Source: Owenia fusiformis (taxonomy: Eukaryota > Annelida > Polychaeta > Sabellida > Oweniidae). From it: 64,000 nucleotides of DNA. This document shows positions 15,902 to 62,254 of this stretch, piece by piece. Each line of letters starts with the position of its first letter. Within the stretch, counting starts at the first letter, position 1. A program made the translations under genes and the position numbers. The stretch lies in NCBI GenBank assembly GCA_903813345.2, contig CAIIXF020000007.1:37782759-37846758 (forward strand), read 5' to 3'. Under the pieces are notes generated by a model. That model was not told where the DNA came from, did no database searches, and worked only from the letters and a program-made list of their open reading frames with translations.

Positions 15902-16020
15902 TATGTTCATAACCGTTCCCCTATTTACAAGTAAAATATATGGAACATCCTTCGCTTTTTGAATAATAAGAATACACATAAGAAGTGATTTCGCTACCCG
16001 AAACCAGTTGTTAGCGGAAA

Positions 16021-19731: not shown

Positions 19732-19957
19732 CTATAATATAGAATACGTTGAAACATGGTTTAACAGTACATTCCGAGGACAATTATATAGAACGTTGAA
19801 AACCATAATAACGAATACCTTGAAAACACCAAATCAGAGTACGTTGTACACATCCATGTCAAAGACCTTAAGCTTGTACCTGTTTGGAAATACGATCAAA
19901 ATTCACGATTCAATTTCTGAAGTGAATAAATAGCGCAAAATTATATGAATTCGAATT

Positions 19958-20241
19958 TCTATGTTTCCTAAGTGACATCCATACATTCAAGTAGATTTCA
20001 TGTTAAAGGATTGGGTGAAATACATATTTAAGTGAAACCCACCAGAATGTACAGCCTCAGGAAATGGGTTGGGTGGGAGGGTAACTTATTTTTCAATCAT
20101 TTCCCAATTTCATGATATTTCATCCAAATTTCATGATATGTAAACTATTATCCATTCCATTCGCTAATGACTACCTCCCTCGAATTCCCTATTTAGAATA
20201 AACATTCACTCTACTCAATAATATAGATGTCACTTAGGAAA
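19958..20241. mobile_element. MITE unit 1 of a tandem pair, TIR TTTCCTAAGTGACATC
   Basis: TCTATG at 19958-19963, then TTTCCTAAGTGACATC at 19964, ending GATGTCACTTAGGAAA at 20241. The first ~66 and last ~65 bases match unit 2; the middle differs. Copy B of the segmental duplication shows the empty site (GAATTCGAATTTTGAAATT near 39997). Confidence 0.85.
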
Positions 20242-21620
20242 TCTATGTTTCCTAAGTGACATCCATACATTCAAGTAGATTTCATGTTAAAGGATTGGGT
20301 GAAATACACTTAATTTTACCCTTTACGGTGTATTTACATCCTAAATAATGTGATTTGTTAATTTTTACTACTCCAAATCCTCAAATCTTTAATAAAAAAT
20401 TAACAAAAAACTAACGTGGACATCGGATTTGAGAGCAATCTCTCCCAGTAGTTCTAGAAGATAGTTTTCCATGATGTAATTATGAAGCTAATAAAACCTA
20501 AAATTGACCTCATATCAATGTTTCATTCATGAATTACTGGTGGGGAAAAATCAGTCCCCTAACATGAGTAATTAATCTCAATTGCCAATTACCTCCTACT
20601 GTGGAGAGACAACTCTCACATCCGAAGTCCACGTGGTTAAAACCACTAAGAGATCAGTGCTCCCGGACTTTAGATGTAAAGAGAAGCCAATTGTTTATCA
20701 GACTTCACTAGTTTCAAATGTTACAAACTCAAGTCATTTTCAAATGAGTTTACAAGAGGGTACATGGAATTAAACCATTACATAACCAATCACTTGCATA
20801 GGTTATCCAGTCATGTCAAAACAATTCAACCTACTTTCTATTGAGTAAACCCCAGTTTTTATTCAATTGCCAATTACCAGATTATACCTGAGTGTCATTA
20901 TTTTCGTCACACTGTAACGTACTGTATAATGACCTCTAATTTTACTGTGTTATTAACACGTTGAATTTCCAGTGTTCATTATAAGGCCATGTTATCAAGA
21001 TTTTTCATGTCATCAATGTTCTATTTTTCTTTGTTTCTGTCAAATATTTGCCTCTCAGAAAACTTCTCTTATATTGTCTCATAGTTATATTTAATAGCCC
21101 CTTGCTCTGGCATATATCTCTGTATCTCTAGGCTCTCAAGGCCTTTTATTCATTACCCCTTATGGTTCATATTTTTGCCCCCTGCTTGCTCATAAATTTT
21201 CAGGCCCTTGGAGCCTTTTATTTTAGCCCCTTGCTCGGGCGCCCCTTGCTCAGGCGCCCCTTGCTCGGGCATTTATATCTAGGCCCTCAAACCCTTTTAT
21301 TTTAGCCCCTTGCTCGGGAATTTATATCTAGGCCCTCAAAGCCTTTTATTTTTAGCCCCTTGCTCGGGCATTTATATCTCTAGGCCCTCAAAGCCTTTTA
21401 ATCTCTAGGCCCTCAAAGCCTTTTATTTTAGCCCCTTGCTCGGGCATTATATCTCCAGGCCCTCAAAGCCTTTTATTTTAGCCCCTTGCTCGGGCGCCCC
21501 TTGCTCGGGCATGTAAATCAAAATATGCTTACCACTGCTGAATGTACGTCTGGCCACTTAGAATTCCCTATTTAGAATAAACATTCACTCTACTCAATAA
21601 TATAGATGTCACTTAGGAAA
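20242..21620. mobile_element. MITE unit 2 of the tandem pair, carries a minisatellite
   Basis: Preceded by its own TCTATG (20242-20247), then terminal inverted repeats TTTCCTAAGTGACATC (20248) and GATGTCACTTAGGAAA (to 21620). It is about 1.37 kb. It joins unit 1 head to tail and carries the AGCCCCTTGCTCGGGC array at its right half. No transposase frame was seen. Confidence 0.85.
21090..21512. repeat. Minisatellite, core AGCCCCTTGCTCGGGC
   Basis: Units of very roughly 45-60 bases alternate AGCCCCTTGCTCGGGC with TTTATATCTAGGCCCTCAAA and GCCTTTTATTTT. At least six core copies are visible, some with the 16-base core doubled (CGCCCCTTGCTC). It lies wholly inside the second MITE unit. Confidence 0.9.
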
Positions 21621-22619
21621 TTGAAATTACGACGGCAGAATATCGAGATGGAACCCTGGGAGTCAATCCTCCTTATGCTACATTTTTCAAATCTGACTTG
21701 TTTCACTATTCGCTGCCTATCGAGAGATCGTGAGTTAACCCTTATGTCTGCAACCTTTTTTATAACACTAAGTCGCAAGAGGGGGGTCATTTTGACCCCC
21801 TCTGCGATTTTTTTTATTTCTTTTCTGATTTCATTAGTGTTGGTATTGTTGTAAACCTTATTCAATTACCTCTTCAGAAAAAGTTTTGTTTCTTAAAAAT
21901 GTAGGTCAACATAGGTCATATCGTGGTCAACGTGATCGAGGGGTGAATATTATTGATATTTTGTGATAGATTGTCAATTTTCTTTCACAAGAATTGTAGG
22001 TGCCAAAAAAAGCTCCGCTGCCTTAAAGAATAATATATCATCTTTCAAATAAAACTAAAATCATGGTAAAATCTTTTTTAGAACTGAAGTTACACTCCTT
22101 CAAAGATAGCAGGTATCGCGAAATCCGATTGAAATCAATGTAACGTGAAATAGTCAGCAATATCAAGTTCATTACAGCTTGTTTTTGTCTTTAGCAATCA
22201 TATTTCAAAATGGGCAACAAAGGATTGGTATCGATATGGAGAACTGAATTCAACAACGTTTTTCTCTTAAACCAATCATTGAAAACATTCTGTAAAAACA
22301 TGGTATTTTATGTAATGTTGACTGATTGACAACAATTTAATGCGAAAATTATTTAGAAATATAAGGAGCATCAAGAAACGATGAAAAATCGATTTTGGTA
22401 ATTGCGAACCTTTTCAACTAAATTATATTTGTAGTTGGTCCCTTATATTTAATGTCATGAATGGCAACTGTCATAAAAGGAGTGTTTAAAGAGTTGATTC
22501 AAACTGACGTGGAGTGGGCGGGCATCAGATAAAGCAAAAATTAAATGCGTCATTAGGAGAAAATGATTACATAGCTTGGCCAGTCTATGGCAGACAAATA
22601 TTTCCGCAAACAGTCTATG

Positions 22620-25800: not shown

Positions 25801-28800
25801 TCGCTGATATTGAGAAATCTGAGGTTGAAGTTTAGGTCTTCATAACTTTTGAGTAGTAATTTTTAAAAACTTATTGTTTCGTATAGGTACCCATGTGTAT
25901 GTGTAGGCCTTGCAAAGCAAAAATCACTGATTGGTTCCCAATATTCAGGGATCACAGCGCAGCTCTGCCAACGATGCAGCTCACGTTTGCCTTTGGCTTC
26001 GGCTGCCAACGATGCAGCCCACGTTTGCTGCCAACGATGTAGCTTTCGTGTGCCTACGGCTTCCGTTCAATGTGTTATTGGAGGTAGACTTGCATACTTG
26101 TACTCCCCGACCACAAGTACACATATGCAGTTGGTCGCTTCAATTCTCCAATCTAGCTTGTACCCAAGACTTCGTCCATCATATCAAGCGACACGTCGCG
26201 GGATCACACAAGCTCTCAATCAAGTAATCCAATCAACCAAAAATTCAATCAATCAATCAATCAATCAAAAGAACATATATGAATTTGAAATCAAGATAGA
26301 TAGCTTGGTGAGGTGGATTGCCCTAACTACTGTATATTATTAATGTATAATCACATGACTTTCTTTCAGGGAACCCCAAGCCAAACTTGAGTAAATAAAT
26401 GTAATATAATTTAATTCCTGTGTTGTTGTGAATCATAAATGTTTGACTTATACTTTAAGTATAAGTCGGGTTTATGATTGACAACAGTATCCACCCCTCA
26501 AGGCATATATCATGTGCAACGAACCGGTTGGCTAATTCTTATGTTATTGTAACACTAACCATTGCTTGATTCATTTTAAGGTGCGCTTTGCGATAGCAAC
26601 ATCCCAAAGTCACCTTGTTAAACAAGTTATCCGCCATCCACCCCACCGCACACCAATTCTTCTGAACGCCATTTATCTTAAGAGATAGGCCTATTGGCCG
26701 ATATTTAGGTTTAGATCAGTACAAGACATGTTTGTTTGCCGATTGTGCATCTTGTGATTATCATCATTTCACTATTCAAAGATGTACATGGGTTCCAACA
26801 ATGCATTGGTGCGTTCCCAATATTCAGGGATCACAGCGCAGCTCTGCCAACGATGCAGCTCACGTTTGCCTTTGGCTTCGGCTGCCAACGATGCAGCCCA
26901 CGTTTGCTGCCAACGATGTAGCTTTCGTGTGCCTACGGCTTCCGTTCAATGTGTTATTGGAGGTAGACTTGCATACTTGTACTCCCCGACCACAAGTACA
27001 CATATGCAGTTGGTCGCTTCAATTCTCCAATCTAGCTTGTACCCAAGACTTCGTCCATCATATCAAGCGACACGTCGCGGGATCACACAAGCTCTCAATC
27101 AAGTAATCCAATCAACCAAAAATTCAATCAATCAATCAATCAATCAAAAGAACATATATGAATTTGAAATCAAGATAGATAGCTTGGTGAGGTGGATTGC
27201 CCTAACTACTGTATATTATTAATGTATAATCACATGACTTTCTTTCAGGGAACCCCAAGCCAAACTTGAGTAAATAAATGTAATATAATTTAATTCCTGT
27301 GTTGTTGTGAATCATAAAACACTTTTTGTTTGTTTTTGAAATATCAAAATAACCCTGAAAACTGAATTTTTATTCACTTCCATTTATTATTGTCTCGTAT
27401 ACCATTATTCTGCCCATCTAATTATAAAGAATATGGCTTGTGTTCCATTTTGACTGATAAGGTACCGGATGAGCTTGGTCCATGTTTTTGCTTACAGTAC
27501 AGTATTTCTAATTATGTTAATTATGTGAAGTAAATCATTTCTCATTGATTTTGAAAATGATAGGGTCTAGCTTTTCAGCATCTGCGAATTATTGCCATTT
27601 ATACCCCCTGGCTACTTTTATGAGGGGGTACAATGATAATCATCCATAATTTCTGTTATATACCTTCAATCACATTCATATTTCTCGGGATTATGTATCT
27701 ATATATAAGTAGTTGCTATGACAAGTTCGATCATGATTGGTCACGTGGTTGCCATAACAACACAACATAAATGCGAAAAATTGTAAATATTTCAGATAAA
27801 TGCACCAAATCTTTTAAAGGTACATGACAAAGGTAAAAAAGCTATAACAGGGTCAGTAATTGACTGAAAGTTGACTGAATGAACTTTTTTTGTTTTTTTT
27901 ATGTATCTGATTGGCTCTGTTGCCTACCCAAACAGATATGACAAGGTGGGCCTAAATTGTTTTTCCTCATTTTGCACTTATAACAATGTGGCACTGGATA
28001 TCTCCAAAAGGAGATGAGATCCATTAAAATGGACCTCAGAAATGAATTCCTCATGAAAAATTGAGAAAGATAGTATACTTATCCCAAAACCTGTAAAAAG
28101 TGAGTTATAACAATGTGGAAATAATGGGACGAAATGGTGCTGATAGTTCACTGATTTTTTCACCAAAATCGGATAATGTTAAAACAGGTCAGTCTGCCAT
28201 TCTTTCCGTCCCATTGGGTGGGCGATTGTTTCGCAGTTCTTTGCTGCGCATTTGCCAGGAATGGTTGAAACCAATTTGTTTTTAAGGTTATGCGCGTTTC
28301 ATTTGATTTCTCACTACCTGAAAGTTTGATTTAATTTTGATATATTGGAGATAAATGTATTAGCTTAATTTATTTTTTTTAAATACCCACCCGGAAAACC
28401 CCGGATGTTTTATTCATATTTTACCCGAAAAAATGGAAATTTGAAAACGACTGAGCCCGGATTAAACCCGGAATCTTTTTATACAATCAGACCGGAATTT
28501 CGAGACTTTTAGGTCGGGAAGTATGCCTGTATTATTCCGCTATAATAACGTACCAGCGTGTAGTTGGACACCTCTATATCCTGCTCCCATTCTTCACCAA
28601 GATTATCCAGTAGTTGATGTACCCCACTCATTACATGATACATATTAGACTCACTGTAAAATAATCGTAGTTCATGTACTTCAAAGTCGTAGTTCAAAAA
28701 TTTTATTTATATTTTACAAATAATAATTGCATATAGCATACCTGTGAAGTAGAAAAAATTTAAATCGGGATATTTTCGTTTTAAAAATCGGGAGAAGTCG

Positions 28801-35584: not shown

Positions 35585-35667
35585 GTAAAATATATGGAAC
35601 ATCCTTCGCGTTTTGAATAATAAGAATACACATAAGAAGTGATTTCGCTACCCGAAACCAGCGGAAA

Positions 35668-36598
35668 ATGGATAAATTTACCTGTCTAAGACTTCTTGTC
35701 GCTTTGGTATGCATCGTTAGATGTAGTTGTATAGAGGAAAATGATACAACTATAAGGTATGTGTTTCTAACTATGAGATATATGATTTTAATTGTAAAGA
35801 CTTTAAATCTGTATTTGTGTTGCATGTATAATCTTTAAATATTTTTCATTTATAATATTAAAACATTTGGCTTCAGATTTTCAGTTCGACGTCCAGTAGG
35901 AAGAAAGGTACAACTTGCACCAAAAGTGAATACATTCTTTTGGCTTTGTTATCATTTTTAATTTTTTACTTTTTGTATACAACAGGGTGTCTGTCTTCTT
36001 TAAGAATGTTGCTATTAACATTTTCATATCGTCTCTTATGGTCTCCATTATTGAGGGGCTATACTCTACCCCGGACACACCACTCTTAGGGGGGAGAAGT
36101 CTGACGTGTCGCAAAAGGGTGGCGCATTTGTTTTTTTAAGAGTATCGCGTGAAAGTAACTTTGATTCCCCGGATTATAAGAAAATATTCTAATTAAAGTT
36201 ATATATCATTTTAAAGCTGTTTCGATAAAGTTTTAAGATCAACTAGGCCTACACTCTGTTCACAATATCTGCGCGTTCTTTTTTTAAAAATAGTTTTCAC
36301 CAAAACATCTGGTAAATATCCCCTGTTGACATGTTACATTTTGAAGTATTTTTCGTCTTTAAACGCTCATAACTCAAACAATATATGACTATTATACTTA
36401 TTTTGTGTCTTGATAAAGGTATATGGAAGTTATTTCAAAGGATGAATTTTAGTAAGCGTCCCATATTGTTACGTCATAGAGTTTGAAAAATAGAATATGT
36501 TGACAGCGACCTTTTTTGCTCATTTTGTGTTACCTTTAACTTTTCAGGTGTACATTAAACAAAAAATACGAGATCAATTTTTAATAAATCATTCATGA
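35668..36598 (+). CDS. Candidate small secreted peptide gene, copy B (3 exons)
   Basis: Exons 35668-35756, 35877-35907 and 36548-36598. The signal peptide MDKFTCLRLLVALVCIVRCS has one extra codon relative to copy A. The microexon sequence (FSVRRPVGRK) is identical, and the last exon differs by L to F. The 56-residue frame, three exons and all splice sites survive in both copies although the first intervening intron positions carry substitutions. It converges on the minus-strand gene that ends at 39019. Confidence 0.42.
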
Positions 36599-37761
36599 TT
36601 ATTTTGCTCTTAAATTTGAGTTTATTAATAAATACTAGAATAGTAGCTGATCTAGTTCGCAAAAAGTATGTGTTTTCTGTTGCATGTGGAAAAGTGGAGG
36701 ACGAAAGGTTTTCAAAATTCATTAAAATAGGGCTAATTTACGCCATTCGCCTATTTTCAAGCACAGCAACACGTATATTTATTTCAACTAAAGTATCAAT
36801 TGATTCGTTTTTATGATGCTCCTAACCCATTGTTAATACATATACGATATCAGATTTATCCGCCTTGCTGTCTCATTATTGAAACTTTTTATCAGTATTT
36901 GATCATAAAATGTAAAACTAGGGGTCGTTTTTCTTTTCATTTTATACAAAGGTACATCTAAAACGTCAAAATGTATTATATCAACCAGATTCTCTTTGCA
37001 TTTCAATGGGAAAATGAAAAATAATTTAATAAAGACTCTCTTGTCAATGATGAGTTGCATTTTTATTCAATCAGACACATTCAAAATAAATGGCGTCAGT
37101 GATGATTAGCGTGACGTATCTCCGACATAAGCCGATTATCTAAATGGGAAATTTCAGTGTCGCGGTACGCACAGTAACGTGGTATGCCGTAGATTTTGCA
37201 CTGGGGATGAACTTGGTTAATGACAATGTTGCCAACAATGTTCACTATATCGAGATATTTTCTTGCCGTGGGCTTTATACCAACACTTAATATATGCTTT
37301 TTTAGTTTTATAAATAACAGATACTTTTTCTTGTTTCGATGTTAAACTTATTCCAAAATTACACGCTGCATCTTTCATTTAAACCATTTTGCTTCGAACA
37401 ATAGATGAACTGAAAAATAAGACCATCGCCAGTCACCCCTTTAGACTGAAACGTACACCAGCCCCCCCCCCCCCCCCCCCCCCCGTTAAACTGTTTCCAA
37501 TGCAGTTACAAAACACAGGGTATGCATGACTTTGTGATTCACGTCAGTATGTTTTTTTATTTTCCTGAAATATTTTGATATCGACATCTTTATTCTCACT
37601 TTAGAATGAGATTGATAAATTTGATAATATAATTCACAGACAGGCTGTATAATCGTGTCAATGTACTTGCGTAACGGTATGTAGCCAAATAGTATTTATT
37701 GACAAAAATGTGTTACGCATAATATAGTATCAAACGTCCAATCTCTCCAGGAAATCATATA

Positions 37762-39005
37762 CTAGTACATGACTGTTATGTCGAACCACATGGTAAAATG
37801 ACGGTGATTTCTTAATGTGTATTGACGAAATCAAGGTTATGTACGTGTACGTGCGTTGGTTTTGGATGTAGAATTTGAAAAATTGACATCCTTGAATGAA
37901 TTTTTGTTTTATTACATTTTCACACTTAACCCAGAATGCTCTGTATTTAAGTCGTTAACATATAATGCGGGAATTATATCCTGACTCCAGGAGTATTTGA
38001 TTAATTAATATGAATATATGTAATAAACTTCATGGCATTATATGAACATCAAGAAGCTTACTCACAGACTATCATCAAGTTACTGGTAATTAAAACATAG
38101 AATTAAATCATCGAATGTATTTGAATAGGCTATATCATTAGAGATTTTAGAGTTTGATGTGGGACAAACAGATATATCACAGAGATTCCATTTTTATTGC
38201 AGATGATACATTTTAACTCACAAGAGGCTTTCATTTCATATGAATGCAATTCATTTCAATAGTCCGAAATGACACAATATGATACGATAACATATAAAAC
38301 ATCCGACTCTCGAAGGGCAACACCGTTCATCGTGTACATTATGAATATACTTTTCCGTATATTATTGCACAATGGTCTCTCAATTTCTTATTTTTGCCGT
38401 TCTACTGACGAAATGAAGCAGTGAAATGGACTCTAGTACATGACTGTTATGTCGAACCACATGGTAAAATGACGGTGATATCTTAATGTGTATTGACGAA
38501 ATCAAGGTTATGTACGTGTACGTGCGTTGGTTTTGGATGTAGAATTTGAAAAATTGACATCCTTGAATGAATTTTTGTTTTATTACATTTTCACACTTAA
38601 CCCAGAATGCTCTGTATTTAAGTCATTAACATATAATGCGGGAATTATATCCTGACTCCAGGAGTACTTGATTAATTAATATGAATATATGTAATAAACT
38701 TCATGGCATTATATGAACATCAAGAAGCTTACTCACAGACTATCATCAAGTTACTGGTAATTAAAACATAGAATTAAATCATCGAATGTATTTGAATAGG
38801 CTATATCAATACAGATTTTAGAGTTTGATGTGGGACAAACAGATAAATCACAGTTCAATTTTTATTGCAGATGATACATTTTAACTCACAAGAGGCTTTC
38901 ATGTCATATGAATGCAATTCATTTCAATAGTCAGTAATGATAAAATATGATACGATAACAAATAAAATAAAACATTTGACTCTCGAATGGCAACACTGTG
39001 CATCG
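37762..39005. repeat. Internal tandem duplication inside copy B
   Basis: CTAGTACATGACTGTTATG through GATACGATAACA occurs at 37762-38335 and again at 38430-39005, separated by about 95 unique bases. Copy A has this segment once. The second unit contains the probable poly(A) signal of the copy B gene. Confidence 0.88.
38861..38866 (-). terminator. Possible poly(A) signal of the copy B secreted-protein gene
   Basis: First AATAAA on the minus strand after the stop at 39019-39021, about 150 bases downstream. Confidence 0.35.
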
Positions 39006-39018
39006 TGTGTATGTCTAA

Positions 39019-39296
39019 TCAAGCAACAATATTAAAAACGTTAACAAAAGAATCAACGTATGCTTCATGCACGTGAATAGAATATTGTAGGCCATAACCA
39101 TATATGCTGGACCAGACTTCAGCCTCTAATGTATTTACTCCAGTATATTCACTATTGTGGAACTTAGCCGGGTGGACATCGAGTGAACGGATTTTCAACA
39201 AATGTGTTTCTTCTTTAAAATCGCATTCATTGCCAACTAATATAGCGTTGTCTGTAAATATAGCTGAATCTTTCGGCATCACTCCAGTCCATTCTC
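39019..39296 (-). CDS. Copy B secreted protein, exon 3
   Basis: Acceptor TTATTGGCAG chosen because it alone gives phase 1 in the long frame. Starts EWTGVMPKDSAIFTDN and ends VNVFNIVA. Reading into the 234-base intron upstream stays open by chance, so the raw frame overstates the exon. Confidence 0.8.
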
Positions 39297-42200
39297 CTGC
39301 CAATAAATAGGTTAAGCTACACATCTTAAGTTTATACGTGAACATAAATATCGTTCCCTGCATGGATTCTCTCCGCCACTTAATTTTTTATTGAACCTAA
39401 TTAGACATGTCTCCCGGTTAAAATGGGATGATAAAAATTGGAATATGATCTCTTGCAAAGCCACAGAAATAAAAAAGATGAATAATATCAACATGTTAGT
39501 AGTCCATTTCACAGAGACCAGAGGACTTACCTCCGTCAATATAGACATCAGCGTTAGACAATAGAGCATACCCAACGCCTTTGTATTTTGTATTTCTGTA
39601 GTAGGTGACCTCTCGGGCTGGAGTTGTTTTCGTAACAAGTCTAAGGTCATTTTCTTTAATGAATCCCACAAATGTTAGATTTCCAAATTCTACTGAAGAC
39701 CCCATCAATAGTTCTGTGTCACTCAATCTGCTTATATCGATGTTAAACCTTTGTTGAACATATGCTACAAATTCTCTTCCTATAACATAGAATACGTTGA
39801 AACAATGTTTTACAGTACATTCCGAGGACAATTATATAGAACGTTGAAAACAATAATAACGAATACCTTGAAAACACAAAATCAGAGAACGTTGAACACA
39901 TCCATGTCAAAGACCTTAAGCTTGTACCTGTTTGGAAATAAGACCAAAACTCACGATTCAATTTCTGAAGTGAACAAATAGCGCAAAATTATATGAATTC
40001 GAATTTTGAAATTAGGAGGGCAGAATATCGAGATGGAACCCTGGGAGTCAATCATCCTTATGTTACATTTTTCAAGTCTGACTTGTTTCACAATTCGCTG
40101 CCTATCGAGAGATCGTGAGTTAACCCTTATGTCTGCAACCTTTTTTATAACACTAAGTCGCAAGAGGGGGGTCATTGGGACCCCCTCTGCGATTTTTTTT
40201 TATTTCTTGCCTGATTTCATTAGTGTTGGTATTGTTGTAAACCTTATTCAATTACCTCTTCAGAAAAGTTTTGTTTCTTAAAAATGTAGGTCAACATAGG
40301 TCATATCGTGGTCAACGTGATCGAGGGGTGAATATTTTTGATATTTTGTGAAAGATTGTCAATTTTCTTTCACAAGAATTGTAGGTGCGAAAAAATGCTT
40401 CGCTGCCTTAAAGAATAATATTTCATCTCTCAAATAAAACTAAAATCATGGTAAAATCTTTTTTAGAACTGAAGTTACACTCCTTCAAAGATAGCAGGTA
40501 TCGCGAAATCCGATTGAAATCAATGTAACGTGAAATAGTCAGCAATATCAAGTTCAGCTTGTTTTTGTCTTTAGCAATCATATTGCAAAATGGGCAACAA
40601 AGGATTGGTATCGATATGGAGAACTGAATTCAACAACGTTTTTCTCTTAAACCAATCATTGAAAACATTCTGTAAAAACATGGTATTTTATGTAATGTTG
40701 ACTGATTGACAACAATTTAATGCGAAAATTATTTAGAAATATTTTATATAACCGTTTTTGTTAACATTTTTTGTTTTTTAGTGCAATTGTTTTTGCTCCT
40801 TTCTACCAATTCTTGAGAATGAAATAAAATGTTTTTCCGAATCTTGTTGGAACAAAATAGCATATACAACATGTTTTTAGACCTCTCAATATTATAGTTA
40901 TACAAAGGAATTTTTGGTTGATTTTAAAAAAGTGTTCAAAAAATTAAAACAAAATCCCCCCAAAATAGATAAAAATCAAGATAGACCTTTTATTTCATTA
41001 ACAAGATACTTTTTTAAAATCAACCAAAATTTCCTTTGTACAATTACAATATTGAGAGACCTAAACATGTTGTGTTTATGTCGATTTGTTCCAATGAGGT
41101 TCGGAAAGATGTTCCATTTCACTCTGGAAACATGATACCAAGAACAAAACAAGTGTTTGATGTGTTTTCTAAAACAATATAGATGAAAGTATATATATAT
41201 ATTTCAAATTATATTGTTATCATTCAAAAGATGACCATTAAATTGACGATGTGTTAACTTTTTTGATTTTTTTTATGAATGGTTGAAGAGAAACGTGTGT
41301 TCAAAAAGTTCTCCATATCGATACCCATCCTTTTATGGATATCATAATTTTATGAATTTCAATTTATTGGCATCAAGTTCTAACTGTCATATCATCTTTA
41401 TACCCAACCGCCTTGTTTTTTACGCCAAAAAGTGTTTAATATCTGAGGCTCAAGCCAAAAAAATAATGGAGACGCAAAAGAGTTTTGCAAAAAAATACTC
41501 TCGAAAAAATCGAGAGGGGGGTTGGTCGGATTGGGAAGGGAATGAAATCAAGTACAGCTTAAACAAATGTCATTTCTGATTGTAATCAATCTCGTATAAA
41601 ACTCTGATAAAAATATGAATTAAGAATATAACATTAAGTTACCAAAACAAAGGTTGATTTGTCTAGAGGATGAGTTGTCCAGGGTATGATTTGTTCAAGG
41701 GATGAGTTGTTGAGGGATAAGTGGTCTAGGGGATGAGTTGTCCAGTTTCCTATTCAAATTGCGTTGGTTTGTAAATACCTATTTAATGAAATATGTACGC
41801 GAACGCGAAATTACAGGTACACGTTAAGGTTGACCATGTATCTTTGTCCCCATGAAGAATATCTTGAAAATAATAGTTAAAAGTACAACATAAGTACAGA
41901 ATACATTGAAAACATTTATATTGGGTTACATGAGACACAATTAGAAACGTATTAACAATAATTGAAATCACGATCATGTTGAATCTTTTCTTGTAATATT
42001 AATTTTGAATCTAATCAATTCAAGGATTGAAATGAAAATAATGACTAATCTGACCTCTCTTAATGACGTCTTGAGAAGATGTTACTTCTGGATCAATCGT
42101 CTTCCAGGTCTCCTCTAATCCCTGCCTTGGTGACAATACATACGGATAACTTTTTCCATCAATGATCCCCGAGAAAGTCACCTTTGTTGTGTCGTTTCCG

Positions 42201-46174: not shown

Positions 46175-47310
46175 ATGTGTTTTTTTGTGTTTTTTTGTAA
46201 AAACTATATTTCAAGAATAAAACATAGATACAAATATACATTATACATAAGTCTAATTACATTGTTTAATTTCTGTACAGTTTTTCTTTTTCAAAATAAG
46301 CATGTATACTTCCAGTTTTGTCTATATTGAAAATTTGTATTGCACCCCTGGCTATTAAAAGGTCTTTATAATTCCTATCTTTATTTTCCTTATTTATTCC
46401 TATAATTTGTTCAAAAGTGATATTATCAAAAAATTTCCATATATCCCTTATTTTTATACACTCATAAAAACTATTTTTAACATTGTCAATTACATTGCAA
46501 TTCTCACAAAATGAACTATCTCTAATTCTAAAACGATTGAAAATCTCATTACATGGATATATGTTGTGTAATGTTTTCCAGTGAGTAATTAAGAGTTTGG
46601 CATCTACTTTGCACTTGAATGCTCTAAGCCAAATTGCACATGAAATATCCTTACCATTATACTGTAAAATCAATTTTCATTTTCTTTTATCTGTACATAG
46701 TTTTCTAAAATCTGATGTTTCATAAAATGTTATCTCTTTACCATTTAAATATATGTTGAAATCATCACCTGCTTTTACATAACCATAAAGTAATATTACA
46801 TTTCTATTGATACAATTTGAAATACTAGTGTATTGTATCAGTGTCAAAGGATTCCTACCAATAATCTTAGATATTTCAGCATATGCCATAGGTCCATCAT
46901 TGGTTACAATATCACTTACAAAATTCATACTTTTTGCCATCCAATTTGTGAAACATATTTTATTTCCACTTATTTTTAACTTTTCAGTATTCCAAATAAT
47001 TGATTGGTCAGTGTCATAATTTTGCCAAGTTTGTAAAACTTTCTTGTAAAATTGAGGTAAACCGGTATAATTATTAATTGTACTATTGCACTTAAATACA
47101 CGAAGTTCTGTTGCATATTTGCTATAGGAAAACTTTGGAAGACATCCCCAATGTCCATTACATGGTAAAACTATCAGTTTAATCCATTTCAGAATAAATG
47201 AGACTTGTGTATCATACATATCAATCATTTTCAGACCTCCATCTTTGTAATCTTGTCCCATAAAATCCCTTTTAACATGTTCTGGAACAGATTTTAAATC
47301 CTCTGTATGC
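46175..47310 (-). mobile_element. L1/Tx1-like LINE, C-terminal fragment
   Basis: Minus-strand frame with GQDYKDGGLKMIDMYDTQVS, the GGL-x-MID block that follows the reverse transcriptase in L1-like elements, then HWKTLHNIYPCNEIFNRF and a C-x2-C-x-H/C-like cluster (SSFCENCNVIDNVKNSFYEC). One in-frame TGA near 46677 separates the two halves; upstream it is cut at a TAG near 47310. The 3' end fades into A-rich sequence (minus strand) near 46175. Confidence 0.82.
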
Positions 47311-48123: not shown

Positions 48124-51100
48124 GTATATAAACCTGAATTCATTTGAGTCTTGGACTCAGGGCCAGGGCTGTGAAATTCCAGCTTGAATAACGGCTTCCA
48201 ATCCTCCTTGGTATCAGGATCTTCCCCTAGCTATCCCTACATGGTTATAATATGCAATTAAGTTAACATTGAAACAATTGATTTAATTTTAGTATGGCAT
48301 TAGCGGTCCTTTCTGGTACGGAGCGGGTGCCACCATTCAGATTATACTCTTTGCCATTCTATCCATCCAACTGAAGACAAAGGCACCAGGGGCGAAAACA
48401 TTTTTGCAGGTACATCTTTACGCCAGTTTGGGTCATGTATAGGTGAGAAGTCGATTTTCTATCACCATTTCCAAACGATTCTTTTATTTTTAACATAAGA
48501 AATCCTCACTTTAGCAATTCCATGACTAATTATTTCTGACTTACACTGTACCTAAACTTCAGTCATACAACAGTCGTTGAGGAATGAGTTATAAAAGGTT
48601 CTCTCTTGCTCATGCATTCTACATTGTCGTTCAAACAATACAATATAAAGTCTTACAACTATTCCACTTGAATCCCAGATGATGGTGGGCGATATCATCA
48701 AATATAAAATCCACGGTGTGTTTTTTTGTTGTAGGTTATTCAAGCAAGATTTGGTAAACCAGCCCATATTGTATTTTGTGTGTTTGCTGGATTTACCAAC
48801 ATTGTCGTGTCGATGTCCTTGCTGTTAGCAGGCACTGCAGTCATCACCAGTCTCGTTCAAGACCTCTCATTGGAAATCGCCTGCATCATCTTGGCAGCTG
48901 TCATTGGCTCCTACCCTCTTATTGGCGGATTGGGAGCTACATTCTATGTTTCCTATTTCAATACAAGCTTGATATTCGTTATGTTAATCATCCTTGTGGT
49001 TGAAATCTTCTATAACCCGACACAACGTGAGACCAATCCATTAGGCAGCGCTGAAAGTGTATACAAGTATTTGAATGCTACAGTTGGACCGGAGGGAAAC
49101 AGCGAACAAAGTTACCTAACGTTCCTTTCTTCGGGTGGACTCATGTTTGGTGTCATTAACATTATCGGTAATTTTGGCACTGTGTTCTGCGACCAGAGCT
49201 ACTGGCAAAGCAGTGTAGCCGCAAAACCTGTACATGGTGTCTGGGGATTCATAGCAGGGGGTCTCACGTGGTTTGCCATCCCATTCACCTTATCAACAAC
49301 CATGGGACTGTCGTACCTCGCCTTGGGAGAACGGAATGGAGTATCACTGCTGTCTGCAGACGATGTCGACAAAGGTTCGGTAAATTAAATGTCGGAAAAT
49401 TATCTTCATTATGTTATCCAATGCGAAGTTTCTAGTCATTAGGAAAATTAAAATTAGGAAAATGACAAAATTTGACCATTCGGAATATTAACTACATGAA
49501 TTAAGTACCACTTATACAGTATGTGAGTATACTCTAATTCTTTTCCAGTTTCCAAATTTATGCAGGGAGTGTATTATTTTGACGATGCCTACCTAAAAGT
49601 TCGAGTTGTCATTGAAAATCTAGATGAAATGTGCATTGAAATCAATATTTCAAATGAAGGGACGTTTTACAACAAACACAATCTAGCTAATAAATAAGCT
49701 AAGAGGAGTTAAACTTGCAATGTTGTTCACAACTTTAACATGAACGGAAAATATTTAACCCCCCTATCACACCAAACTAGTTCTTACCCGTTCTTGCCAG
49801 TCCTACGATCCGAAAACGTCGTAAAACGGGCTCAATCTAACTGAGGTCGGGAAATATGTCTAAAATAATTAGCTACTTCGTTAATAAACAGTCTTCAAAA
49901 CGTCCATCTCATTCGCAGTTCGTTCAGGTCGCACCACGTCGGTATGCAACGTCGTATTACACGTCCTTTAGTCTAGAAGGTCATCATGACCTGATTACAG
50001 ACCGGTATGGTCGCCATCGAATTTTGAATCATTTCAAAATTCTAAAATCACCTTCCCGTCTGAGAACGTTCGTGAAGTTCGTAAATAGTCCTTAGAAAGT
50101 TGCAGCTACGTTCATTCCGTTCGCACACAGTTTAAAATCAGTTTTGAAGAACGCAGTGGCAACTTGTTTGGTGTGATAGCTATATTTTTGCTAACTCGTT
50201 CATAAGCAGTCTTTAATACGTTCTTAATCAGTTTAAACCCGTTTGCAATTAGTTCTACCTCGTTCTCATTACGTCCTCTGACAGTTTAACTCGTTGTGAT
50301 AACGTCCCTAGTAGGATTGAAGTACGACGGTTCCGTTCGTTCGACGTTTTTACATCGAGTTGAACTATCTGAGGACGTATTGAGAACGAGGTAGAACTAA
50401 TTACAAACGGGTTAAAAGTGATTAAGAACGTATTTATCAACGAGTTAGCAAAAATATAGCTATCACACCAAGCAAGTTGCCACTGCGTTCTTCAAAACTG
50501 GTTTTAAACTCTGTGTGAACGGAATGAACGTAGCTACAACGCTCTGCGGTCTGTTTACGAACTTCATGGACTTTCCCAGACGGGGAATGTGATTTAGAAT
50601 TTTGAATCGATTTAAAATCCGATGGCGACCGTACCGTTCTGTAATCAGGTCATGATGACCTTCTAGGCTATGGGACGCGTTATGCTTTCGTTGAACACCG
50701 ACGTGGTGCGACCTGAACGAACTGCGAATGAGATGGACGTATTGAAGACTGTTTATGAACGAAGTAGCTAATTATTTTAGACATATTTCCCGACCACAGC
50801 CAGATTTAGCCCGTTTTACGAAGTTTTCATAGGACTGGCAAGAACGGATAAGAACTAGTTTTTTGGTGTGATAGGGGGGTAAGCGATGCATTTGTATGGG
50901 CGATTGGTCATACGTATAGGATGGCGTTTCTATTTTTATGCAAGCTTAAACTCCCTTTTAAGTATGCCATATGCCGCAGGTGTATCTATCATACACCACA
51001 AGTAAATATGCCATAATCGTTGCGGAATATGATATGATATATATTTGTATCCTGTTTACTGCGTAACACCTAGAGCTACATGTTTCAATTTTTAGGATTA

Positions 51101-54100
51101 GTTCCTCCAGTTGTCGCCCAAGTGGTGTTGGGGAAAACTGGAGAATATGTGATGCTCCTACTTATTTTAATGGCCGTCATGTCTACAGGATCTGCGGAGG
51201 TCATCGCCGTTGCTTCTGTCATCGTATACGACATATACCAGACATACGTTAATCCATTCAGGTAAACGAGATTTATCAAATATACATGGCTCCATTCAGG
51301 TATACGGCAAATATTAAATATGCGTCGATCCATTCAGGCATTCGACATAGATCAAATATACGTCACTCATTGTTTATGAATAAAAGTTATTCACTTTTAA
51401 TATTTACACAATTTTTACATAATATACAATGATTCTAACAGGTTTACAGAACTTATTTGTTATAGATTTTAAAATTTCTTAGTTTCCAAATTTCAAACTT
51501 GTGTTTAAACACTAGTCGGTTTCTACATGTATAGCATTTGTTCTCAAAATCTCCTTCGTTGTACGTTATAAAATGAAAGTTCTTGTTCAGAAAACGTTAA
51601 ACTTTGAGTATTTACATATTTTTGCATTCGTGCAATTGACAAATAAGTGTTTATGTCTACTTCAATTATTGCATATCTTTCAAATTCCATTTGACTTGTG
51701 AATTTTTTTGAATTTTTTCTGTCCATATGGCTCCATTAAAACATCAAAATATAAATTCTTGAACATTATTTCTAAAGTCACATTAGAACAAAACCTTATA
51801 AAATCAGACAAATCGATTTGGATTCTTGGATTCTATTATACTGTTTTTTCAAACCATTTTCTTATTGATTGCACATTGTCCCGTCATTCAGGTATACGAC
51901 AAATATCTAACATACGTCACTTCATTTAGGTATACGACAAATATCGGACATACGTCACTTCATTCAGGTATACAACAAATATCAAAGATACATTGCTTCA
52001 TTCAGGTATACGACAAATATCAAACATACGTCACTTCATTCAGGTATACAACACATATCAAAGATACATCGCTTCATTCAGGTATACGACAAATATCAAA
52101 CATACGTCACTTCATTCAGGTATACAACAAATATAAAATATACGTCACTTCATTCAGGTATAGGACAAATATCAAATATATTACGTCACTCCATCCAGGT
52201 ATATGACAAACATAAAACATACTTCACTTCATTCAGGTATACGACAAATATCAAACATATATCAATCCACACAGGTATACGACATATCAAGAAATATACG
52301 TCGACCCATTTAGGTATGGGGTATACTTTATACCAAACATATGTCATTTCATCCCGACATACAACATATATCAAATATACGTCACTTCATTCAGGTATAC
52401 GACAAACATCAAACATACGTCAATCCATTCAGGTATACGACATATCAAGAAATATACGTCGCCATGTTTTGCACAAAACCCTATGTAAAGGAAGAAGTTT
52501 CAATTATATTACAGCAGTTTTCTCATATTTTATTATTACGCGTTTATGCATTTCATATGTTAGACTAGAATATAGGTATGTATAAAATAAAATGAAATCT
52601 TACATTTTGACGAAATAAACCTTGTTTAATCAACTTTGGGGGGTTTTGGGACCTCAATAGTTTTTTTTCTTTTGTACTTTGGGGGTTCCTTTATTGATAC
52701 TGAGATTTGCCAAGATGAAATAGGTGTCAAAGGGAGTTTTTGGGTAGAAAATGCGTTTATTGCAAAAAAATTAAATTGATAGAAAAATACTTTTGAAGAT
52801 TTATTATATAAAAACAGTCTAGTTGACTCTCAAAAGTCAAAATATACCATGTTTAATCAATTGGGGTGATTTGGGGAGCTTAGTAACTTTTTCTTTGTGA
52901 TTTGCATGCAATTTCGACTAAAACGAGTGTGTTCAAAACATGATGACACCATTAACATATTTTGACGAGCAGCTTAATCATGGTATATAATTGAAGGGTA
53001 AATGGTCCCTTTGTTGATACTGAAATTTGCCAAGATGAAAAAGGTGTCGAAGTAAATTTTTGGGTAAAAAATGTGTTTTTTCACAAAAATATTTTATGTT
53101 AAAAAGAAAATTCTTAGAAAAATCATTATATGAAATATAGTCTAGTTGACTCAAAAAGTCGAAATAGACAATGTTTAATCAAGGGTTCCTTTATTGATAC
53201 TGAGATTTACCAAGATGAAATAGGCGTCAAAATGTGTTTAAGGTGAAATGCGTTTTTACAAGAGAAATTCAAAAATTGAAATTTATTTTTTGAAATTAAA
53301 TTTTAACAAATATAGTCCGATTGATTTTAAAAGAAGTGAGAACAACTATTTGTTATCAATTTTGATAAGATTTTCGAAGCTGTTTGAGGTATTGTCTTGT
53401 GGTTTGTATCTTGCGAATTCAAAGGCACTTGAATTAACAAGGAGTTAAGGGGATTGCGGTCGGTGCGATCTCAACCCCACCCCAAAAATACAACCAAAAA
53501 AAGCTGAGAGGTTAAGAATGCTTTTTGAAGTTTCTAGCTCAATTTTGAAGGAGGTTGCACCAATTTTTAAAATACTACAATTACACAATTATCTTTAAGA
53601 TACACAATTATCTTTAAAATACTTCTCTCAGTCAAATTATCACTAACACTGAAAGCATCACCATTAACAATGTTAATTGTTGATTCAAATAGTATTTAAT
53701 GTTAACAATTAGCAAAGATTTGAACTGCATCGATCTGTTATCATATTTGCACCCAGCAGCACATTTGATCCTAGACACTGGGCTCATTGGCACTGACCAA
53801 TAAGCTTTGCATTCCATTTTGCAGTATATGTCTGGTATGAATGTAGATTTGTAAGATTAATACAAGTACATTTGACATATATTTTAATCTGATTTTCACC
53901 TTCATCTTCTATGTCATAATTATTCTCATTTATTTATTGACTGTAAGTTCATTGGTACCATCAATTTTAAATACCAAGCATGTTACGAAAACTCTTTGTT
54001 ACCCCCCCCCCCCCCTTTCACACCAAACTAGTTCTCAACCGTTCTTGCCAGTCCTACGAAAACGTCGTAAAATGGCCTCAATCTGGCTGTGGTCGGGAAA

Positions 54101-57100: not shown

Positions 57101-58460
57101 ACATGCCAAAACCTGAGTAAAAACCTCAACCTATAATCTATCATCTTTATGACTCATCTACATGAAATGATTCATAGTCAGTAGTAGATTAACAACCGTA
57201 ACCCCCCTATCACACCAAACTAGTTCTTACCCGTTCTTGCCAGTCCAACGAAAAAGTCGTAAAACGGGCTCAATCTGGCTGTGGTCGGGAAATATGTCTG
57301 AAATAATTAGCTTCTTCGTTCTTAAACAGTCTTCAATACGTCCATCTCGTTCGCAGTTCGTTCAGGTCGCACCACGTCGGTGTGCAACGTCGTAGAACGC
57401 GTCCCTTAGTCAAGAAGGTGAACATGACCTGATTACAGAACGGTATGGTCGCCATCGAATTGAATCGATTCAAAATTCAAAATTCACCTTCCCGTCTGAG
57501 AACGTTATAAAGTTCGTAAATAGACCTTAGAAAGTTGCAGCTACGTTCGATCCGTTCGCACACAGTTTCAAACCAGTTTTGAAGAACGCAGTGGCAACTT
57601 GTTTGATGTGATAGCTATATTTTTGCTAACTCGTTCATAAGCAGTGTTAAATACGTTCTTAATCAGTTTAAACACGTTTGCAATTAGTTATACCTCGTTC
57701 TCAACACGTCCTCAGACAGTTCAACTCGTTGTTAAAACGTCCCTAGTAGGATTGAAGTACGACAGTTTCGTTCGTAGTACGTCCAGCTCGTCGTTAGTAC
57801 GTTGTCACTCGTTCTAATTGTAGAACGTGACGACTACGAGAACATTTTGAGCATTGTCTTAGTTCTAGAGGACCTACCCGTTCGAGTACGTTCGATGAAG
57901 TTTGTAAATAGATCCCAAACGGTTAACGGTTCTTAGTAGGTCCAGTCCGTTCGTACACAGTTGAAGCCCGTTTTCGAGAACGTAGTGAGAACTAGTTTGG
58001 TGTGATAGTAGGGTAACAAAGAATTTATATTTTAGGAAAGACCACGTTGATGGCAGTTGTGTATTTTGTGGTGAACGAATTATACATGATGAGCAAGCAG
58101 CCGCAAATGCATCCCCGGGGGAAGATCCTGTATGTCGATGCAAGCCAATTGACGAGTGTGTGGAATGCCTTGATTGTCGAGCCATGCGTAAGAAGAAATC
58201 TCCCTTTGGTGTACCCTACCCTTACACTTGTAAAACACACGGCCTATTCCAACAGTACCAGGATAACTTGAAAAACTACAAAAATTGGTGTATACTCTGG
58301 GTTACTCTGTTTACCATCCCGTTGGTGTTGTTCGCCAATGCTGCTGGGCTAAACTTGGGTTGGATGTACTTGTTCACGGGAGTCCTTATAGGAAGTTCCG
58401 TCATTCCTATAAGTTTAAGTGTTTTGTGGGACAGAGTTACAGCCCAAGGAATGATTTCAG
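47874..58460 (+). CDS. DUR3: DUR3-type urea symporter (sodium:solute symporter family), five exons, both ends missing
   Basis: Exons 47874-48123, 48293-48409, 48735-49374, 51096-51261 and 58036-58460 join in matching phase into about 532 residues without a stop. Diagnostic blocks: GLTATTIVSQWTWSATLLQS, YGISGPFWYGAGATIQ, IGSYPLIGGLGATFYVSYF, GNFGTVFCDQSYWQS, GLVPPVVAQ, MSTGSAEVIAVASVIVYDIY and GWMYLFTGVLIGSSVIPI. These are conserved in DUR3 transporters, which import urea with a proton or sodium at the plasma membrane. About twelve hydrophobic segments are visible. A hydrophilic cysteine-rich loop sits at the start of the last exon found. The family is ~650-700 residues, so the C-terminal helices lie past 64000 or in unseen exons. 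Confidence 0.93.
48293..48409 (+). CDS. DUR3: DUR3 exon B
   Basis: 39 codons, acceptor TTTAATTTTAG, donor CAG|GTACAT. Encodes YGISGPFWYGAGATIQIILF and KTKAPGAKTFLQ. Confidence 0.92.
48735..49374 (+). CDS. DUR3: DUR3 exon C
   Basis: Acceptor TTGTTGTAG, phase-0 entry. The donor is AAAG|GTTCGG, chosen because only this gives the Gly of KGLVPP on joining exon D. Contains several helices and the GNFGTVFCDQSYWQ motif. Confidence 0.92.
49759..50879. mobile_element. MITE family H copy a: double-left-end palindrome, 1121 bp
   Basis: Both ends are the C-rich type: CCCCCCTATCACACCAAACT at the left and its complement at the right, flanked by TAA (49756-49758, 50880-50882). The right half is the left half inverted, about 540 bases each, with the hinge near 50310. 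The other four family members have one C-rich and one CCCTACTATC end. TAA/TTA target duplications suggest PIF/Harbinger. Confidence 0.9.
50950..51068 (-). repeat. Partial copy of the GTTACGCGGTAAAC element beside the exon D acceptor
   Basis: Reverse complement begins GTGTTACGCAGTAAACAGGA and continues ATTCCGCAACGATTATGGCA. Its terminus is about 27 bases before the exon D acceptor AG. Confidence 0.8.
51096..51261 (+). CDS. DUR3: DUR3 exon D
   Basis: Acceptor CAATTTTTAG, phase-1 entry, donor TTCAG|GTAAAC, phase-2 exit. Encodes GLVPPVVAQVVLGKTGEY and ends VYDIYQTYVNPF. Its last 38 bases are the founder of the downstream minisatellite. Confidence 0.93.
51224..51371 (+). repeat. 38-bp unit: exon end plus three decayed downstream copies
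   Basis: Unit 1 is coding (51224-51261). Units at 51262-51299, 51300-51337 and 51338-51371 follow without a gap, each starting GTAWACG-like sequence and, except the last, ending CCATTCAG. Confidence 0.88.
51892..52461 (+). repeat. 38-bp minisatellite derived from exon D
   Basis: About fifteen units of the form GTATACGACAAATATCAAAC followed by ATACGTCACTTCATTCAG. They read VYDKYQTYVTSFR in one frame, mirroring the exon peptide VYDIYQTYVNPFR. Period stays 38 except for a few slips near 52180-52300. Confidence 0.93.
52620..53240. repeat. Three diverged copies of a ~150-320-bp repeat
   Basis: TTCCTTTATTGATACTGAGA, TTTGCCAAGATGAAATAGG and GTCTAGTTGACTC recur at about 52690, 53008 and 53186. Intronic to DUR3; no coding content. 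Confidence 0.75.
53250..53998. other. DUR3 intron, no feature seen
   Basis: No exon or repeat boundary supported. Confidence 0.5.
54002..54801 (+). mobile_element. MITE family H copy b
   Basis: C-rich left end expanded to 14 C, then TTTCACACCAAACTAG; right end CTAGTTTGGTGTGATAGTAG. Flanks are TTA (left) and TCA (right), one apparent substitution. About 800 bases, interior rich in ACGTTC/GAACGT words. Confidence 0.85.
54805..57198. other. DUR3 intron, no host exon seen
   Basis: Mostly featureless. A sequence near 55780-55920 ends in AATGAATAAATAAAAGC and may be a retroelement tail. 56900-57060 holds degenerate GGGAC-CC-CATCTAGG repeats. Confidence 0.45.
56105..56175 (+). promoter_or_regulatory. 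Possible TATA promoter or solo-LTR promoter in the DUR3 intron
   Basis: GC-rich CTGCGCAGGCGCAGCGCTC is followed by CTATATAAAG at about 56134 and a donor-like CAGAGGTAAGCC at 56164. It looks like a core promoter with a short first exon, but no downstream gene was found and LTR boundaries were not identified. Confidence 0.3.
57202..58013 (+). mobile_element. MITE family H copy c, ends 22 bases before a DUR3 acceptor
   Basis: CCCCCCTATCACACC left end, GGTGTGATAGTAGGG right end, TAA on both sides (57199-57201, 58014-58016). 812 bases. The exon E acceptor AG is at 58034-58035. Confidence 0.92.
58036..58460 (+). CDS. DUR3: DUR3 exon E with cysteine-rich loop
   Basis: Acceptor TTATATTTTAG, donor TCAG|GTAGGT, phase-2 entry, phase-1 exit. 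Starts KDHVDGSCVFCGERIIH, then VCRCKPIDECVECLDC and YTCKTHG: a CxxC, CxC-x5-C-x2-C-x2-C and CxxH series in a hydrophilic loop. Two helices follow, then VLWDRVTAQGMIS. I infer a metal-binding ribbon; it is not shown. Confidence 0.92.
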
Positions 58461-59134
58461 GTAGGTTGTTTTACAAAATGACTAAACTTAAAGCTACGAC
58501 CACATGTAGTCTGGCACGTAGTTGTTCTGCATCTGATCGTGTCCTTGTAAATCATTGAACTGGTTGTGAATGAGTTCAATGTTCTGAATAGGTTGAAAGT
58601 TTTAGTTCATGAACAGTCTAAGATTGACAAACCGACTAATTACAAACCTACTGTGAGGCTGTATTAACGTCGAGAAATGTAATACAATGTCATGAATATA
58701 TGCGTTTCGTTTTGAGAGTATTTAAACGCAATAACAATTGGCTATAATTGAGATGTAACTCGGTCGAGGTAGGTCTTAATGTGAAAAGGTGCCATCGGAA
58801 AATTTAGAAATAGACCGAAAGCACCATTCCGTATGAACTAGTCACTTAAATCAGTAAAAATATCATTAAAATCCCCATCCCGTTTGCATATACAGGACGT
58901 CCCGAAAGTATGGGACGCCCCTCCCCCTCTAGCCAGAGATATACCAATGTCAACGTAGTATGTGTCATATCTCATTTCAAAGCTTATCCAAAGTTACATT
59001 GATTTGCCAAGTATCCTGTTTCAACTCACAAAGGGGGAAAACACTATAAAGTTGTAAAACTGAACTTTAATTTTGGCCAAACACTAAATAGTGAAATGCC
59101 TGCATCTTCAAACTGTGTGACTGTGATCAATCTG
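58461..59134. other. DUR3 intron or 3' flank, no exon seen
   Basis: No continuation exon recognised. ACAGGACGTCCCGAAAGTAT at 58893 resembles a mariner-type end without a partner. Confidence 0.45.
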
Positions 59135-59137
59135 TTA

Positions 59138-59945
59138 CCCTACTATCACACCAAACTAGTTTTCACTACGTTCTCGAAAACGGGCTTCAACTGTGTACGA
59201 ACGGACTGGACGTACCTAGAACCGTTTGGGGTCTATTTACAAACTCCATCGAACGTACTCGGACGGGTAGGTCCCCTAGAACTTAGAACATGCTCAAAAT
59301 GTTCTCGTGGTCGATACATTCTACAAATAGAACGAGTGACAACGTACTAACGACGAGCTGGACGTACTACGAACGGAACCGTCGTACTTCAATCCTACTA
59401 GGGACGTTTTAACAACGAGTTGAACTGTCTGAGGACGTTTTGAGAAGGAGGTAGAACTAATTGCAAACGGGTTTAAACTGATTAAGAACGTATTTAAGAC
59501 TGCTTATAAACGAGTTAGCAAAAATATAGCTATCACACCAAACAAGTTGCCACTGCGTTGTTCAAAAATGGTTTTAAACTGTGTGCAAACGGAATGAACG
59601 TAGCTGCAACTTTCTAAGGTCTATTTACGAACTTCATGAACGTTCTCAGACGGGAAGGTGAATTTAGAATTTTGAATCGATTCAAAATTCGATGGCGACC
59701 ATACCGTTCTGTAATCAGGTCATGATGACCTTCTGGACTAAGGGACGCGTTATACGACGTTGCACACCGACCTGGTGCGACCTGAACGAACTGCGAATGT
59801 GATGGACGTATTGAAGACTGTTTATGAACGAAGTAGCTAATTATTTTAGACATATTTCCCGACCACAGCCAGATTGAGCCCGTTTTACGACTTTTTCGTA
59901 GGACTGGCAAGAACGGGGAAGAACTAGTTTGGTGTTATAGGGGGG
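59138..59945 (-). mobile_element. MITE family H copy d (inverted)
   Basis: CCCTACTATCACACC left, GGTGTTATAGGGGGG right, TTA on both sides (59135-59137, 59946-59948). 808 bases, opposite orientation to b and c. Confidence 0.92.
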
Positions 59946-59948
59946 TTA

Positions 59949-60974: not shown

Positions 60975-62254
60975 TAAGTAAAGTTACGATTTTTCTGCCT
61001 GATGTCCAATCTATGTGTTCTTGAGTCCCCACGACATTTTTTCTAACAAACGTGTATCAGTATCATATGTTTTATAAAAGGTACATGTTTAATTTGCGAA
61101 AAATAGCTCAGAAGACAACAGAATCGTCGATTTAATTCCTCGCTTAAGTTACATAAACGGTAAGGGTTAAAAGTACAGATCTTAACTGTTTTTCGAAATA
61201 CCGTTTCGGTAACCCTACTATCACACCAAACTAGTTCTCACTACGTTCTCGAAAACGGGCTTCAACTGTGTACGAACGGACTGGACCTACTAAGAACCGT
61301 TTGGGATCTATTTACAAACTTCATCAAACGTACTCGAACGGGTAGGTCCTCTAGAACTTAGACAATGCTCAAAATGTTTTCGTGGTCGTCACGTTCTACA
61401 ATTAGAACGAGTGACAACGTACTAATGACGAGCTGGACGTACTACGAACGGAACCGTCGTACTTCAATCCTACTAGGGACGTTTTAACAACGAGTGGAAC
61501 TGTCTGAGGACGTGTTGAGAACGAGGTAGAACTCATTGCAAACGGGTTTAAACTGATTAAGAACGTATTTATGACTGCTTATGAACGAGTTAGCAAAAAT
61601 ATAGCTATCACACCAAACAAGTTGCCACTGCGTTCTTCAAAACTGGTTCTAAACTGTGTGCGAACGGAATGAACGTAGCTGCAACTTTCTAAGGTCTATT
61701 TACGAACTTTATGAACGTTCTCAGACGGGAATGTGATTTTAGAATTTTGAATCGATTCAAAATTCGATTGCGACCATACCGTTCTGTTATCAGGTCATGA
61801 TGACCTTCTAGACTAAGGGACGCGTTCTACGGCGTTGCACACCGACGTGGTGCGACCTGAACGAACTGCGAACGAGATGGACGTATTGAAGACTGTTTAA
61901 GAACGAAGAAGCTAATTATTTCAGACATATTTCCCGACCACAGCCAGTTTGAGCCCGTTTTACGACGTTTTCGTAGGACTGGCAAGAACGGGTAAGAACG
62001 AGTTTGGTGTGATAGGGGGGTAACTTAAGTGAGGGATTAAATCGACGATTCCGTTGTCTTCTGAAGTATTTGTTCGCAAATGTGTACATTTTCTTAATCA
62101 TATGATACTGATATACGGTTGTGATAAAAATGTCGTTGGAATTGAGCCCACAACGTGTGAAATAAGGAAAAATGAAAAATCGTGCCTTCGACGTTCCGAC
62201 ATTTTGTTACCAAAACGAACCGTTTCGGTAACCAGCGTAATGGAGTGGATCACC
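60975..62254. mobile_element. Palindromic MITE, TIR GGTGATCC, copy 2, split by MITE H copy e
   Basis: 60975-61212 and 62021-62254 match copy 1 (24931-25390): GGTAAGGGTTAAAAG, CTTAACTGTTTTTCGAAATA, then GGATTAAATCGACGATTC and the right arm ending GGATCACC. The left arm is degraded. Confidence 0.85.
61213..62020 (-). mobile_element. MITE family H copy e (inverted), nested
   Basis: CCCTACTATCACACC left, GGTGTGATAGGGGGG right, TAA duplicated (61210-61212, 62021-62023). 808 bases, the same length as copy d. The host MITE sequence resumes directly after it. Confidence 0.93.

Follow-up and report, generated by a model that had tools for sequence, protein, structure and literature searches.

The last 38 bases of exon D in a DUR3-type urea symporter gene have been copied head to tail into the following intron, where most of the joints between copies retain an AG|GT. 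We identified this array in a 64-kb stretch of DNA (referred to here as the window, from whose first letter all positions are counted). Judging from its structure, we consider it probable (roughly 0.8) that the array is a minisatellite of the type known from amphioxus as a mirage, which would have originated from the end of exon D, expanded within the intron and remained mostly neutral, its joints forming weak decoy donors.

The host gene consists of five exons on the + strand that give one continuous reading, A to E, without a stop (Table 1). A phmmer query of 272 amino acids, covering exons C and D and the first codons of E, was similar to solved DUR3 chains over the core of the protein; three distinct solved-chain sequences were matched, the best being 9j7c, "Urea-proton symporter DUR3" (E = 5.7e-57). 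TIGR00813 (sss) matched exons C, D and E singly, each under the whole-protein cut-off, and among the four exons given to Pfam only exon C matched SSF. The 3' end of exon D falls after two bases of a codon. The intron between exons D and E spans 6.8 kb, with its last base at 58035 and the acceptor TATATTTTAG.

Table 1. Exons of the DUR3 gene and components of the 38-bp array, in window positions
Feature	Positions	Strand	Description	Basis
DUR3 exon A	to 48123	+		continuous reading
DUR3 exon B	48293-48409	+		continuous reading
DUR3 exon C	48735-49374	+		continuous reading
DUR3 exon D	51096-51261	+	acceptor TTTTTAG|GATTAG, donor TTCAG|GTAAAC	alignment with solved DUR3 chains runs through YDIYRTYINP
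Source unit (last 38 bases of exon D)	51224-51261	+	codes VYDIYQTYVNPF plus AG; starts GT, ends AG	unit matching, peptide conserved
Native donor CAG|GTAAAC	51259-51267	+	copy 1 begins with its intronic half (unit GTATAC, here A for T at +4)	
Three proximal copies	51262-51371	+	starts 51262, 51300 and 51338; third cut at 51371	wrap-around alignment
Insert inside copy 3	51372-51883		512 bp, AT-rich, 26% GC, TCATT on both sides	
Rest of copy 3 and distal array	51884-52461	+	14 full copies 51892-52432, partial copy 52433-52460	
DUR3 exon E	58036-58460	+	next coding exon after D; in-phase join PFR-KDHVDG	

Eighteen intronic copies (51262-52460) adjoin the exonic unit and one another without a break, the sole interruption being an insert in copy 3. 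Wrap-around alignment resolved them into two full copies on the proximal side, one that the insert divides, 14 full distal copies and one partial copy, with scores of 156 for the proximal and 784 for the distal part, compared to maxima of 16 and 21 in five shuffles each. Tandem Repeats Finder likewise reported a 38-bp period at 51224-51361 (3.6 copies) and at 51884-52442 (14.5 copies, score 643). A preliminary description of this DNA had placed the repeat at 51224-52461, as three copies followed after about 520 bases by about fifteen more, and both the coordinates and the layout were correct; the check that it had proposed, tandem-repeat analysis with the exon end as query, recovered the exonic unit followed by its copies at a 38-bp period. 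Full copies match the exon at 28 to 33 of 37 to 38 bases, the proximal ones at 28 to 29, while 22 of 27 bases match in the partial copy at the end. Divergence between copies is higher in the proximal part (0.27) than in the distal part (0.18).

The TCATT pair flanking the insert resembles a target duplication, and before the insertion the array most likely ran unbroken from the exon end. No match of at least 80 bp to the insert was found elsewhere in the window, nor did it show inverted ends at the thresholds used. We also considered the insert as decayed array and rejected this, since the best wrap-around score within 51360-51890 was 19, which fell in the first 12 bases, themselves part of copy 3, and five shuffles scored 14 to 18.

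The similarity between array and exon end clearly exceeds chance. The array consensus agrees with the exon end at 32 of 38 positions, while the best 38-mer outside the array, on either strand of the window, reaches 23 of 38, and shuffled exon ends compared in all 38 rotations reached a maximum of 25 of 38 in 20,000 trials. The ends of the other four exons match the consensus at 7 to 13 of 38 positions in register, and these exons reach 17 to 21 when any place and any rotation are allowed. The central claim of the preliminary description, that the array is an amplified exon end, was thus borne out. A search of viral contigs with the array yielded one exact 17-base match, around which no second unit was seen by eye in 265 bases, and no known structured RNA was matched in the whole window by Rfam at the gathering threshold.

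The sequence common to array and exon end would also fit an older array from which the exon end was recruited, and by itself gives no direction. The protein does. The exon-end peptide YDIYxTYxNP aligns with solved DUR3 chains, which read YDIYRTYINP (alignment of three). A first scan of genome contigs found no relative, and tblastn on plasmids returned 2 distant records only; a second contig scan gave 126 confirmed relatives, of which 80 prokaryote loci, mostly archaeal by record title, were kept. These 80 were chosen by two conserved patterns and are not a random sample; taking the best ungapped match with at least 4 of 11 residues, the exon-end peptide was recognisable in all of them. All 80 loci conserve its D and its third tyrosine, 78 the first tyrosine, 78 the P, 76 the T, 59 the second tyrosine (F in 21) and 48 the N (K in 28, R in 4). 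Conservation of the peptide beyond this gene shows that the exon end is old; the array is its copy. Against a recruited exon end also stands the array majority, which departs from the exon peptide at three residues (I to K, N to T and P to S): at these sites the 80 loci show V/I/L, N/K/R and P/R, and never the residue of the array. Conversely, the array and exon D both have V where all 80 loci have T, and Q where 79 have R and one has K, as expected of a copy of exon D. We thus reject the opposite direction, which would be extremely improbable unless our DUR3 alignments were wrong.

With GT as its first and AG as its last two bases, the unit forms AG|GT wherever two intact units meet. This is the case at 15 of the 17 intronic junctions, the exceptions being 51338 (AG|GC) and 52357 (CG|AC). 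The earlier statement that nearly every unit keeps TTCAG|GTATAC therefore holds for the AG|GT core and is too strong for the exact string, which is found at 10 of 17. The A at +4 occurs at the native donor only, column 4 of the copies lacking it throughout. Scored with an approximate matrix, which makes all bit values given here rough, the native donor reaches 7.9 bits, the highest value among the unit joints, whereas the commonest decoy reaches 5.1 and most copies fall below the native site. The best decoys on this matrix are 52314 (TTTAG|GTATGG, with a G at +5; 7.1 bits) and 52199 (TCCAG|GTATAT; 6.7 bits). By the same approximate matrix, the gene's other donors score 6.5 (exon A), 6.3 (exon B), 3.9 (exon C) and 10.2 bits. 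Of the 3713 GT sites in the window, about 6% reach the score of the common decoy, and 3 of 465 GT sites in the intron beyond the native donor score at least as high as the latter (approximate matrix in both cases).

Conservation of the donor positions was also compared with the remainder of the unit. Variation in the nine donor columns is 0.075, compared to 0.130 elsewhere, a difference that is not significant (P = 0.13; 0.14 when CpG columns are left out, 0.17 when the AG|GT core is compared). Even so, the junction region varies less than most of the unit (rank 4 of 38 circular windows), and weak selection could produce this as well. The motif YAG|GT occurs 16 times in 51262-52461 and 10 times in the remaining 5573 intronic nt. 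In the 17 bases upstream, array junctions carry 9 to 12 pyrimidines and the four acceptors of the gene 8 to 12; the average for 311 other intronic AGs is 8.5.

Beyond the native donor the frame continues as TTC AGG TAA, an immediate stop, and all 17 downstream joints yield the same predicted truncated end, VYDIYQTYVNPFR*. Among the unit joints, the native one alone reads continuously into exon E. The preliminary description had argued that any downstream donor would shift the frame, 38 not being a multiple of 3; this is wrong, as 5 of the 17 lie a multiple of 3 away from the native donor, 4 of them with AG|GT. Because the TAA directly follows the native donor, it is the stop in copy 1, rather than the frame, that decides the result. 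This TAA includes the +4 A of the native donor. Copy 1 departs from the consensus at 9 of its 38 positions, so the change to A could well be due to chance.

If the array arose as a mirage from the end of exon D, a tandem duplication would have carried the 38 bases, with their GTATAC start and CAG end, across the exon-intron boundary, and slippage or unequal exchange would have expanded the unit to 18 intronic copies. The resulting array would be more diverged near the exon and more homogeneous farther off, with one insertion, and its row of weak donor-like and acceptor-like sites would be a by-product of the GT...AG unit. The native donor would keep its advantage, being first in line and alone in having the +4 A, so that normal splicing is expected for most transcripts and the array would be mostly neutral. 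Use of a decoy would lead to a stop at the next codon, and the message would probably be lost by nonsense-mediated decay. Some decoy use is possible, as 52314 and 52199 come close to the native score and exceed those of the exon A to C donors.

The earlier proposal that array length tunes productive splicing through the frame fails, because each of the 17 downstream donors meets the TAA. In a more general form, decoys would compete with the native donor, and their number would set the share of productive DUR3 message. Several observations favour such control: 15 of 17 junctions retain AG|GT, and on the approximate matrix the exon C donor is weaker than the common decoy and the exon A and B donors weaker than the two best decoys. 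In human IFI6, moreover, two downstream repeat units are used as donors and three mRNA species result, according to the part of the report drawn on here (PMC4526556). Yet the native donor comes first and has the highest score of the unit joints (approximate matrix), the copies lack its +4 A (although two of them approach its score), the donor columns are not significantly conserved, and sites of common-decoy strength are frequent in the window. The cited portions of the amphioxus reports, too, describe mirages that leave splicing undisturbed (PMC3087553, PMC3902484). Taken together, this makes splicing control by the array unlikely.

Two further readings turn on the GT...AG unit itself. In the Rogers model, the intron would have been born from tandem duplication of a GT...AG exon segment, leaving the protein unchanged, and enlarged by later insertions. 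The unit does start with GT and end with CAG exactly at the splice site, and its removal as a whole restores the coding sequence; precedents are fission-yeast introns made of 24-nt exonic repeats (PMC4974935, PMC3629103) and a proposal for amphioxus globins (PMC3087553), as far as the consulted parts of these papers describe them. We nevertheless regard this origin as very unlikely, since copies of the duplicated segment do not flank the intron at both ends: the last copy ends at 52460, cut short and with no exon E sequence next to it, and the acceptor, about 5.6 kb farther on, is not a unit copy. It is similarly doubtful, in our estimate, that the array acts as a safe ratchet by way of its joints, most of which are both acceptor-like and donor-like (YAG|GT). 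Exon D mis-spliced into the array would then have a donor rebuilt at the joint and could be spliced on to exon E, restoring the same message, while direct use of a downstream donor would instead be caught by the TAA of copy 1. If this were true, the array would be a natural test of spliceosome choice among some fifteen near-identical sites.

Mirage-type origin from exon D, the reading that we prefer, places the array beside a known class. Mirages are minisatellite-like tandem duplications of exon-intron boundaries in the amphioxus genes Adh3, BflGb6 and BflGb9 (globins), TnC and PGBD5; their units, many of them with AG/GT, measure 10 to 72 bp in Adh3 and about 150 to 160 bp in the globins, and they are unstable in length while splicing is reportedly undisturbed (PMC3087553, PMC3902484, from the sections cited). 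The DUR3 repeat spans the exon-intron boundary, with an exonic first unit (51224-51261) and 18 copies from 51262, and many but not all of the copies carry AG/GT (15 of 17 junctions); its 38-bp unit lies within the Adh3 range, and, like the BflGb6 mirage as portrayed there (PMC3087553, PMC3902484), its edge units are less homogenised. It differs from the amphioxus cases in the gene concerned, in a unit of purely exonic sequence and in being split by an insert. By these structural marks, in the one haplotype available, the DUR3 array appears to be a clear new example of a kind already known. Our literature searches, which never paired DUR3 with mirages or minisatellites, turned up no such array in a DUR3 gene. 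With its direction settled, the array is a clean example of an exon end giving rise to a minisatellite in the intron, outside the genes named for amphioxus in the cited sections (PMC3087553, PMC3902484). Should the host not be a cephalochordate, this would suggest that mirages arise more widely.

Other systems share single features with the array. The unit of the human IFI6 (6-16, G1P3) minisatellite is 12 bp, hence the frame is kept. Like the DUR3 array, this minisatellite offers multiple splice donors, two of which, in downstream units, are documented as used in the passages cited (PMC4526556), whereas in DUR3 each downstream donor predicts an immediate stop. Tandem exonic copies inside an intron are also found in intron gain from AGGT exon segments (ATP2A1, fission yeast SPOG_01682 and SOCG_00815, human internal tandem repeats), and the human repeats at exon-intron boundaries have been linked to intron gain (PMC2812944). 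According to the excerpts available, however, those introns arise from the repeats (PMC4974935, PMC3629103, PMC2812944), while most of the DUR3 intron and its acceptor are not repeat-derived. Similar to recursive splice sites (ratchet points, zero-length exons), the array joins acceptor-like sequence straight to GT, with YAG|GT at 15 of 17 junctions. Unlike the Drosophila recursive consensus (Y)nNCAG|GTAAGT, as given in the cited part of PMC5126111, the DUR3 joints mostly read GTATAC, and they lie 38 nt apart in an intron of 6.8 kb. About fifteen similar donors in a row would in any case amount to a natural experiment on donor choice, and possibly to an early stage of intron change.

The window contains several other repeated features. 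A large direct duplication (15931-22362 and 35585-40742) is mostly 94 to 98% identical in pieces, with one piece at 88%; two minus-strand open frames of the 35585-40742 copy had no Pfam match. Direct repeats of 465 bp (10959-11423 and 12288-12752) and of 506 bp (25934-26439 and 26813-27318) are each 100% identical and represent either very recent duplications or assembly artefacts. Long minus-strand open frames at 46266-47309 give the impression, by their sequence, of the end of a non-LTR retrotransposon; the one frame of this region submitted to Pfam (46677-47309) had no match. Pfam matched none of the four open frames tested besides the DUR3 exons. In the exon D-E intron, a repeat-family element of about 820 bp (57198-58018), with ends like GTAACCCCCCTATCACACC, is 93 to 95% identical to inverted copies near 59131-59948 and 61206-62024. 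The exon C-D intron also contains, at 49756-50883, two oppositely oriented pieces of this family back to back. The element at 57198-58018 ends 17 bases before the last base of the exon E acceptor, and the branch point of the intron is thus probably located inside it.
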